Origin: Treponema sp.
Lineage (GTDB): Bacteria > Spirochaetota > Spirochaetia > Treponematales > Breznakiellaceae
Direction: 5' to 3'
Assembly (NCBI GenBank): GCA_031256115.1
Contig: JAIRRF010000229.1
Span: 1-14,643, forward strand
Length of the DNA: 14,643 nucleotides
A model generated the notes under the pieces. The model saw nothing but the letters and a program-made list of their open reading frames with translations. It had not been told where the DNA came from and did not search any database. A program made the translations under genes and the position numbers. Shown here one piece after another: positions 9,399 to 11,017 of this stretch (position 1 is the first letter of the stretch; each line of letters starts with the position of its first letter).

Positions 9399-10187
9399 TT
9401 AATCATGACCCAGGATCCGTTCCCGGTAGGCCGCACCAATCCTTCTCAGGCTTTCCGCAAGGCCTTCACCGGGCCTGGCTTGCCGTTTTATGTCTATGGC
9501 AAACTGATTCATGGAAAAATGACGGAAGAAAAAGAGGCTGTTTTTAAATTCCGGGTCAGTACCGCAAAGGGATTTTAGGGTTTTCGTATATGTTTCAAAA
9601 ATACCGCCTTTCCTCATCTCCGAATAACCAATGATCCAGACTGGAATGACCGGTTGTTTTAAAGCTGCCCGGCGGCCTTCCGGTCTTTTTATTTTTCCGG
9701 AAAAAGCCTTCCAAAATTCATTTAGCAGTTCCGCCATATGCTGCTGGGAGGAAAGTACAGCGTTTTCCAGTTGTCTGCCGCCTAATTTGCAGAGATCCTT
9801 TAATTCCCCAGTCCTGGGTGTATGTATGGGGGTTTTGTTGAGTAAAAGTACATTTTTTCTGAAATTGATCCCCAGTTCGGGATTATTCAAAAAAAACTTT
9901 TCCGCTATTTTCCCCGAAGGGCCAACCAGGTAACGGCAGTCTTCCTGTTCACGGCGTCCCGGATTATCCCCGGCCAGGATCATTTTTATTTCACTTTCCG
10001 GACTAATGTCGTTCAGGGCAAGGTTGTATACTACCGGGGTTTTCACAGTATAGGATGGCCCCTCCCGGTTGCTTATTAATTGTTGGATTATTCCGCCAAG
10101 ATCCGGTACTGCGGCGCCGGTTGTGTCTATTGATGAACGGTAACGGTCAAGGGTTTTGCGGAAGGCAACCCAGGCGGTTTTTTTCAT
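9399..10187 (-). CDS. Uracil-DNA glycosylase superfamily protein, divergent
   Basis: 262 residues. The segment ILAGDNPGRREQEDCRYLVG (70-89) followed by PSGKIAEKFF matches the active-site region of uracil-DNA glycosylases (GEAPGxxED...GxPFVGxAGxLL in family 4). NVLLLNKTPIHTPRT (112-126) corresponds to the following N-x-x-K/C-x-x-P segment, and RHFSMNQF (222-229) sits where the leucine-loop H-P-S motif is expected. The four cysteines that hold the iron-sulfur cluster of families 4 and 5 are not present; only Cys84, 133 and 208 are. A repair role on uracil or a related damaged base is plausible, but the altered motifs leave substrate open. No ribosome-binding site precedes its ATG because the 160-bp repeat element abuts it. 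Confidence 0.65.
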   Translation of the reverse strand: MKKTAWVAFRKTLDRYRSSIDTTGAAVPDLGGIIQQLISNREGPSYTVKTPVVYNLALNDISPESEIKMILAGDNPGRREQEDCRYLVGPSGKIAEKFFLNNPELGINFRKNVLLLNKTPIHTPRTGELKDLCKLGGRQLENAVLSSQQHMAELLNEFWKAFSGKIKRPEGRRAALKQPVIPVWIIGYSEMRKGGIFETYTKTLKSLCGTDPEFKNSLFFFRHFSMNQFAIDIKRQARPGEGLAESLRRIGAAYRERILGHD

Positions 10188-10223
10188 GCTAGGAGTTTGT
10201 CGGGCTTAGCCCAAATTAATAGA

Positions 10224-10260
10224 AAAAAATGCGAGAAAATGCAGTTTTTAAGCATTTTTT
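10224..10260. other. Alternative AATGC/GCATT hairpins inside the element
   Basis: AAAAAATGC (10224-10232) and AAAATGC (10236-10242) can each pair with GCATTTTTT (10252-10260), giving mutually exclusive stems. The T-run at the end of the 3' arm gives a weak terminator-like look on the plus strand, and a similar one is read on the minus strand. The stem is AT-rich, so termination is uncertain. Confidence 0.4.
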
Positions 10261-10277
10261 ACCCTACAAACTCCTAA

Positions 10278-10344
10278 AGGAGCCCAAAAATCGTAGAATT
10301 TTGCGACTATTTGTCGTAAAATTCTACAAGTCCGACAGGCTCCT
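10278..10344 (+). other. Nested two-level hairpin in the element
   Basis: AGGAGCC (10278-10284) pairs with GGCTCCT (10338-10344), and inside it GTAGAATTTTGCGAC (10293-10307) pairs with GTCGTAAAATTCTAC (10313-10327) around TATTT. The only non-Watson-Crick pair in the inner stem is G10303 with T10317. That would be a G-U wobble in plus-strand RNA but an A-C mismatch in minus-strand RNA. Strong secondary structure is expected. Confidence 0.7.
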
Positions 10345-10348
10345 GGCC

Positions 10349-11017
10349 CTACAGTACCCTTGTTCCGTGGACCTGTTTTACACCCAGCTCTGCACAGATA
10401 TTCTTGTAATTGTCTTTGGTAACGCCGCCACCGGGAAGTATTTCTATACCGCCGATAGCAATATATTCTTTTATCTGCCTGTAGTTGTCCTGAATGGGGA
10501 CAACAAGGTCCGCCGAACCGTGGGTCAGAATCCGGGTAAAGCCATTATCCCGAAGCCAGCGGAGGCTTTCCATCTGTTCATCGTGATTGATATGATCGAA
10601 GGCCATATGGAAAACAATGTCAAACTTTTTTTGACCGGATTGGGCTGCCTTTGCAGTCCTCGCTGCCCTGGCAAGGAGAAGGTTTTTTTCCCTGTCCAAA
10701 CTGCCTGTGGAGTTAAGACAGCCGAAAACAATACCGCCGGTTCCCAGGTTGCATACTATTTCAATGTCTTTCAGCATTATGTTTATTTCGTCTTCGTTGT
10801 ATATAAAGTTACCGCCTCTTGGCCGGATCATGCTGATTACTTTGATGTCCGGACTCTTACACTGCTGAATTACATATTCGGCAACGCCGTAACTTACAGT
10901 TGTACCGCCTTCTGCAAGGTTATCGCAGAGTTCTACCCGGTCTGCCCCCCCGGTGGCAAGTTCCTTAATGCGGCTTCCGTTTTCAATACAGACTTCCATA
11001 GTAATGCCGTCTGTCAT
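10349..11017 (-). CDS. cutC: CutC family protein, short at the C-terminus
   Basis: CutC is a TIM-barrel protein named for copper tolerance; its molecular function is still debated. The 222-residue product has GADRVELCDNLAEGG, the signature MIRPRGGNFIYNEDE, HMAFDHI and the late ILPGGGVTKDN segment, in the normal order. ATG at 11017 has AAGGAG upstream with good spacing and lies 21 nt after the preceding small gene. The protein stops at VKQVHGTRVL, where the better-known enterobacterial form continues for about 30-40 residues. The stop lies one base from the 160-bp repeat element, so the tail may have been cut off by it; a naturally short lineage-specific form is the alternative. Confidence 0.85.
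   Translation of the reverse strand: MTDGITMEVCIENGSRIKELATGGADRVELCDNLAEGGTTVSYGVAEYVIQQCKSPDIKVISMIRPRGGNFIYNEDEINIMLKDIEIVCNLGTGGIVFGCLNSTGSLDREKNLLLARAARTAKAAQSGQKKFDIVFHMAFDHINHDEQMESLRWLRDNGFTRILTHGSADLVVPIQDNYRQIKEYIAIGGIEILPGGGVTKDNYKNICAELGVKQVHGTRVL

Follow-up and report, generated by a model that had tools for sequence, protein, structure and literature searches.

A short repeat in Treponema and related genomes, probably a MITE of the IS1182 kind, in which each end co-varies with its own internal partner

The usual account of MITEs is that they fold by end-to-end pairing, and the published accounts consulted report stable stem-loop transcripts for Correia/NEMIS, ERIC, RUP and similar elements (PMC2229807, PMC10969869). 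Among full-length insertion sequences of the IS1182 family, ISPse1 is given in the source available to us as 1653 bp with 16/16 repeats and a 4 bp target duplication (PMC3281130). Here we report on a repeat in a Treponema sp. contig which, as we hold with considerable confidence, is a non-autonomous MITE of the IS1182 kind with two hairpin arms, the two ends being complementary to their own internal partners; in about 100 diverged copies the ends co-vary with these separate partners.

The window, i.e. the whole stretch of DNA that was analysed, comprises 14,643 nucleotides (contig JAIRRF010000229.1 of assembly GCA_031256115.1, forward strand). The 160-bp element (10188..10347) has on one side a CutC family gene (10349..11017), the stop codon of which is 2 bp away, and on the other a 262-aa ORF (9399..10187) that abuts it with its start codon and has zero matches in Pfam or NCBIfam; both are read on the minus strand, as stated in a preliminary description made from the sequence alone. 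Its left end (10188-10207) reads GCTAGGAGTTTGTCGGGCTT and its right end, reversed (10347-10328), GCCAGGAGCCTGTCGGACTT, with four differences, each of which is T.G or G.T on the plus strand, and the hairpin 10293-10307/10313-10327 has a single G.T. The 20-bp terminal inverted repeats (TIRs) and nested 15-bp hairpin of the preliminary description, with four differences and one, all G/T on the plus strand, are thus confirmed. Next to the target copies lie the left TIR GAGTTTGTCGGGCTT (10193..10207, plus strand) and the right TIR GAGCCTGTCGGACTT (10328..10342, minus strand), and the same end type is present on IS1182-type elements.

The interior (all coordinates on the plus strand) consists of two adjacent arms. 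In domain 1, A (10192..10200) on the 5' side pairs with A' (10266..10274) on the 3' side and encloses hairpins hp1 (GGGC TTA GCCC, 10202..10212) and hp2 (10224..10260; A-run, stem and T-run); in domain 2, C (10278..10284) on the 5' side pairs with C' (10338..10344) on the 3' side and encloses hp3 (10293..10327). The left end pairs with A' and the right end with C. The bases of hp1 overlap segment B (GTCGGGCTT, 10199..10207), which is able to pair with B' (AAGTCCGAC, 10328..10336). Read directly from the sequence, 10190-10200 is perfectly complementary to 10266-10276 and a longer 15-nt pairing reaches 93 %. That the left end can pair with an internal 11-bp site had been pointed out in the preliminary description; the observation stands, and this is moreover the pairing that co-varies (see below).

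A search of treponeme genomes for further copies, as the preliminary description had suggested, returned many. The element's own draft genome (G000) gave 47 matches at E up to 10; 13 of these, the window copy included, cover 150 or more of the 160 bases with identities of 76-100 %, and a further two extend over the left 85-87 bases. Among the 30 G000 matches listed, solo left-end fragments (7) are more numerous than solo right-end fragments (L025, with L016 lying at a contig edge), as seen in L016-L029. A DNA search of 39 genomes, the own genome included, gave matches at E up to 0.001 in 10; these include genomes from other genera and one from outside the host family. A covariance model made from 28 curated copies, with up to 20 candidates per genome being scored, matched in 83 of 145 host-family genomes, which represent 41 of the 56 genera. 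Named genomes were also scanned with a 19-base pattern, yielding at least 119 stretches; 72 of the 80 tabulated are titled Treponema or Spirochaetaceae, and their isolate codes are presumably those of termite-gut samples. Because a pattern this short is expected to hit outsiders by chance, only those having more than the pattern were counted (L254, L270, L289, L301 and L302). The last of these is a Mariprofundaceae contig, on the reverse strand of which a MITE of ~170 bp starts at 144; its TIR is the same but its interior differs. For the window's exact 25-base pattern there was no match in the named genomes, a search that may not have included the records of the window's own genome. One copy (L240 2502) lies on a contig binned as Bacteroidales (Cd354_bin6), the sample code of which is shared with Treponema MAGs; either mis-binning or transfer would explain it. 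No published description of the element was found among the open-licence papers searched.

Three sets of copies were used. The A2 alignment has 28 rows, i.e. curated copies from 34 fuzzy end pairs, with L014, L046 and L051 added by hand. The wider copy search, covering 100 of 142 loci (L134-L142 being outside), gave 112 matches, from which 12 at ≤64 bits as well as L047, L048 and L070 were left out. A2 (28), 69 further matches and 8 copies from genome G040 together form a set of 105 unique copies from 32 genomes, all of them short (about 145-169 bp) and without a transposase gene.

Copies typically start and finish with CTAG, with decayed forms occurring as well, and where copies abut (L075, L098 and L115) they have a single CTAG in common. 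Beside a full copy in L098 (about 2230-2310) there are several tandem 18-bp repeats of the MITE right end. In the window the left target copy is CTAG (10189..10192) and the right one has decayed to CTGG (10343..10346). The corresponding site is empty in two congeneric genomes, where, as read by eye from the sequences, CTGC (G003) and CTAT (G004) correspond to CTAG-element-CTGG; most simply, the insertion in the window is younger than the split from these two genomes. Likewise, L044 has two CTAG where the unoccupied orthologous stretch in L012 has one CAGG. With a single 4-bp target in the empty orthologous sites at these two places, the element is an insertion accompanied by a 4-bp duplication.

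In the search for a mobiliser, 81 of the 145 host-family genomes gave a match to the IS1182 transposase profile, 6 of them above the curated cut-off. One of 30 loci fetched (L377) contains a 1.6-kb element between two CTAG, with the ends GAGCCTGTCGGACTTT and GAGTCTGTCGGACTTT and a 465-aa ORF that scores 205 bits against the IS1182 transposase, i.e. under the NCBIfam cut-off of 270. Its IS1182-type end equals the window's right TIR across 15 bases, and it is the only element found with two well-matched IS ends. The ends adjoining other IS1182 matches read GAGCCTGTTGCGCTT (L363), CAGCCTGTTGCACTT (L366), GAGTCTGTGGGACTT (L369) and CAGTCTGTCGGACTT (L373, from the window's genus). L363 and its neighbours score above the IS1182 cut-off and the other three below it; L366 has two CTAG ends 1.8 kb apart that differ in subtype, and the match in L373 has two in-frame stops. 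The TIRs of the MITEs are of the type [G/C]AGYYTGTNSSRCTT and adjoin CTAG, and the end subtypes TCGG, TTGC and TGGG are common to IS1182-type elements and MITEs. On a Planctomycetota contig matched by the 19-base pattern, there is a short ORF behind a MITE-type end that we take to be IS1182-like. The own draft genome, 72 % complete, gave no IS1182 match, and the mobiliser was not seen there. Taken from these sequence likenesses, an IS1182-type transposase very probably moves the element; it would recognise both TIRs in trans and insert the element at CTAG. The designation "MITE-like" in the preliminary description is accordingly well founded in the copies, the TIRs, the 4-bp target duplication, the empty sites and an IS with matching ends.

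Mobilisation by an IS5-family (DUF4096, IS427-type) transposase we regard as improbable. Elements of this family in the host family carry ends such as GAGCCTGTTTAATATCT (L220) and GAGCCTGTTTAGAATCT (L221), one of them (L213) has CTAG flanks, and a second MITE subfamily with a similar two-armed plan (L106 2147-2283, L110 3361-3497 and L039 1497-1633) has ends like GAGCCTGTTCAAAAT; an IS5-family element with CTAG direct repeats has also been published, according to the part of that account available to us (PMC9241763). These IS5-family ends, however, diverge from the window TIR after GAGCCTGT, whereas the IS1182-type end in L377 is identical over 15 bases, and G000 has no DUF4096 match. Since the IS5-family ends are somewhat similar to those of the MITEs, a second mobiliser beside the IS1182-type transposase is possible. 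The CTAG-flanked element in L213 (about 954-1765) has a MITE right end on one side and a MITE left end on the other. Two other candidates were set aside. DDE_Tnp_1 was represented by 27 loci, in which an inverted-repeat scan gave no matching end pair; a motif scan found isolated MITE-type ends in some of them, e.g. L152, L153, L161 and L162. A REP/RAYT relationship had been considered because CTAC follows hp2 and hp3, but the GTAG on the 5' side of hp3 is not conserved between genera and the matching IS is of the IS1182 type. An isolated end in L192 is merely a right-end fragment between two host genes.

Co-variation was assessed at one diagnostic pair for each arm in the unfitted MAFFT alignment of the 105 copies from 32 genomes. 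The A5/A' pair is GC in 76 copies, CG in 25 and unpaired in 4, and the C/C' pair is GC in 56, CG in 43 and unpaired in 6, whereas the end-to-end pair of the preliminary description is, at the diagnostic place, unpaired in 34 of the 105. The four arm combinations were found in 50, 22, 19 and 5 copies, the other 9 having an unpaired arm. On a midpoint-rooted tree built without the diagnostic columns, one most-parsimonious reconstruction has six direct G-C/C-G flips for each diagnostic pair, of 11 and 12 changes, respectively. The left end and A' thus flip together, as do the right end and C, and the two do so independently, which argues for a two-armed MITE and provides no evidence for a plus-strand RNA.

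In the unfitted A2 alignment, four of five pair measures exceeded all 500 of 500 shuffles and the fifth, pair types, was reached by 34 of 500; all five were above the slid controls. In A3, an alignment of 112 rows, all five exceeded the shuffles and the proportion of paired cells is 93.2 % vs 38-50 % in the slid versions, but A3 was fitted to the model and so leans towards it. Over whole structures, the end-to-end fold comes close to the two-armed one (86.3 % vs 88.2 % paired) because hp2, hp3 and B-B' are common to both; in A2, however, 9 of 28 rows lack its outer end-to-end pair and its A'-C helix is without two-sided change. B-B' also co-varies; B and B' are, however, both part of the TIRs and the IS1182 subtypes alter the same bases, and so this co-variation can arise from TIR matching alone. 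To judge from the alignments, each end co-evolves with its own internal partner, giving two separate hairpins and not one end-to-end stem.

The preliminary description had instead considered a folded plus-strand RNA in which selection keeps all pairs G-U or Watson-Crick on that strand, an explanation that we consider very improbable. Folding of the plus-strand RNA gave -69.8 kcal/mol (z -10.2), which none of 200 shuffles matched, and the minus strand likewise folds far beyond chance, if less well (-60.2, z -7.7, 0 of 200). A bias towards G-U on the plus strand, put forward as a sign of RNA selection, does not hold across the 105 copies: with each genome and pair counted once and two T.G columns fixed family-wide omitted, the helices show 47 G.T vs 47 A.C events, and the hairpin helices alone 38 vs 30 (p = 0.40). 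The compensatory changes are hence free of strand bias, which the preliminary description itself had named, together with the lack of a transcript, as contrary to its proposal. All columns fixed across the family have G.T on the plus strand (pairs 16/183 and 12/79 and a TT/GG opposition), and hp3 alone leans the same way (15 G.T vs 6 A.C events), but A-A' pairs 1-8 lean in the opposite direction (3 vs 8), as does B-B' (9 vs 17), and the diagnostic end-to-end pair is broken in about a third of the copies, as given above. Moreover, Rfam covariance models gave 0 matches in the window at gathering score, both neighbouring genes read the minus strand, and contacts with stop codons are near equal at the two ends (see below), so that read-through RNA would come from either strand.

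Five of five wobbles in one direction have a chance of 1 in 16 if both directions are equally likely, and three of the five are fixed features of the family and not separate events. Specifically, the T.G oppositions at 10196-10197 arise because the family has TT at the left end and CC at the right as a fixed difference, and these bases pair Watson-Crick with A' and C; the G of the third opposition (10204) pairs with C at 10210 within hp1; and the outermost opposition reflects the decay, in the window copy, of CTAG to CTGG. We regard the G-U pattern of the plus strand as a by-product of the fixed difference between the left (TT) and right (CC) ends, while the fixed columns together with the lean of hp3 may reflect a weak plus-strand preference.

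Co-ordinated changes keep each end complementary to its own partner in the interior, without holding it strictly complementary to the opposite end. The arms may be kept up as an RNA fold, as hairpins in single-stranded DNA or by palindrome correction. As strand bias is absent overall (47 vs 47), a cause at the DNA level is favoured. Templated palindrome correction, or single-stranded hairpins formed in replication or transposition, in place of RNA selection, is in our view a quite possible reason for the upkeep of the arms, held tentatively. The diagnostic flips are mostly double transversions from G-C to C-G, few copies are unpaired (4 and 6 of 105) and G-U steps are unnecessary; in addition, two close copies from one genome (G132; L100 and L101, with ~nine differences counted by eye) are unlike in A as well as in A'. 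Against this, the spacing in the window (65 nt for A-A' and 53 for C-C') seems far for templated correction. Independent change of the two arms provides a natural setting in which to ask what keeps palindromes intact in mobile elements.

With regard to the origin of the two arms, shorter units with the same ends exist, both as half elements and as ends-only copies. Domain 1 alone is found in L011 (1501-1585) and L012 (844-928), in each case just upstream of an ATG, and L038 (about 1498-1550) has a piece resembling domain 2. Copies of about 36-52 bp consisting of the ends only are present in L178 (1484-1519; a perfect palindrome between CTAG), L198 (1497-1548), L021 (81-123), L312 (6200-6236) and L270 (272-309), the last being on a Betaproteobacteria contig. 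The junction A'-NAAA-C resembles the junction of abutting copies, which suggests a dimer origin, and the arms could be the relic of two abutting one-hairpin MITEs.

The position of the copies relative to genes was analysed for 210 element ends, of which 19 had too short a flank and 112 had no frame open for 150 codons. This leaves 79 long frames that extend to an element end: in 34 the stop codon is precisely the TAG within CTAG, in 28 it lies earlier by up to 45 bp, and 17 run into the element. The exact stops are divided between the left (16) and the right end (18), i.e. there is no preferred orientation, and in L116, L121 and L180 the two CTAG copies terminate frames that approach the element from either side. 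Simple cutting of genes would give half as many in-frame stops as run-ins, so most of the stops look native, by an arithmetic in which some long frames may be spurious. A rougher ORF call for the 105 copies placed 17 between converging, 11 between diverging and 40 between parallel ORFs, 13 inside an ORF and 24 undecided; the 13 inside indicate that gene avoidance is incomplete or that the ORF calls are rough. We suggest that the CTAG used is often a gene's own TAG stop codon, that each duplicated CTAG would keep a stop, and that selection would remove intragenic insertions, so that many of those left are at stop codons. By inserting at CTAG and duplicating it, the element would have a simple way onto a stop codon without losing the stop.

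Runs of at least 4 T occur in the 3' arm of hp2 in 88 of 105 copies, whereas in hp3 such a run is present in the 5' arm in 98 of 104 copies and in the 3' arm in 0 of 104, giving most copies a polarity opposite to that of hp2 (hp3 was not obtained in 1-2 of 105 copies, depending on the per-copy tally). From these T-runs hp2 looks like a terminator readable from both strands; a terminator scan of three stretches did not flag hp2, although the scan's rule may treat the T-run as part of the stem. If it is a two-way transcription terminator, hp2 could make insertions at gene ends harmless. A more far-reaching proposal, which we hold to be doubtful, is a mobile two-armed fold with the ends in separate hairpins selected in RNA or single-stranded DNA, hp1 and B-B' acting as an exclusive switch, and hp2 as a portable two-way terminator delivered to stop codons without destroying them. 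If the two-armed fold and the portable terminator are true, a MITE would domesticate gene ends across a whole bacterial family.

Finally, compared with known systems, the element is closest to the IS1182-family IS, with which it shares the CTAG-flanked ends GAG[C/T]CTGTCGGACTT in L377 and, going by the description available in part, a 4-bp target duplication (PMC3281130); it differs from them in having no transposase gene, a length of about 150 bp and a two-armed interior. MITEPsy1 of Pseudomonas syringae, as far as its description was accessible, has other ends and is attributed to ISPsy2, and a two-armed fold is absent from the accessible text. The CIRs of Caulobacter and Brucella, in the portion of the report on hand, are likewise built from two arms, each an inverted repeat, with a linker between them and no end-to-end pairing (PMC2229807); that report describes CIRs as carrying a GANTC motif and as only partly resembling MITEs, whereas the element here has TIRs, a target duplication and a related IS. 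Correia/NEMIS, ERIC, RUP and similar MITEs are, in the excerpts at hand, similar in size (about 100-200 bp) and occur in many copies (PMC2229807, PMC10969869), but are reported to fold from 5' end to 3' end, whereas the ends studied here co-vary with internal partners. SPRITE of Streptococcus pneumoniae, according to the section available, is a mobile repeat with a terminator-like hairpin (PMC10969869), a role that hp2 may play here.
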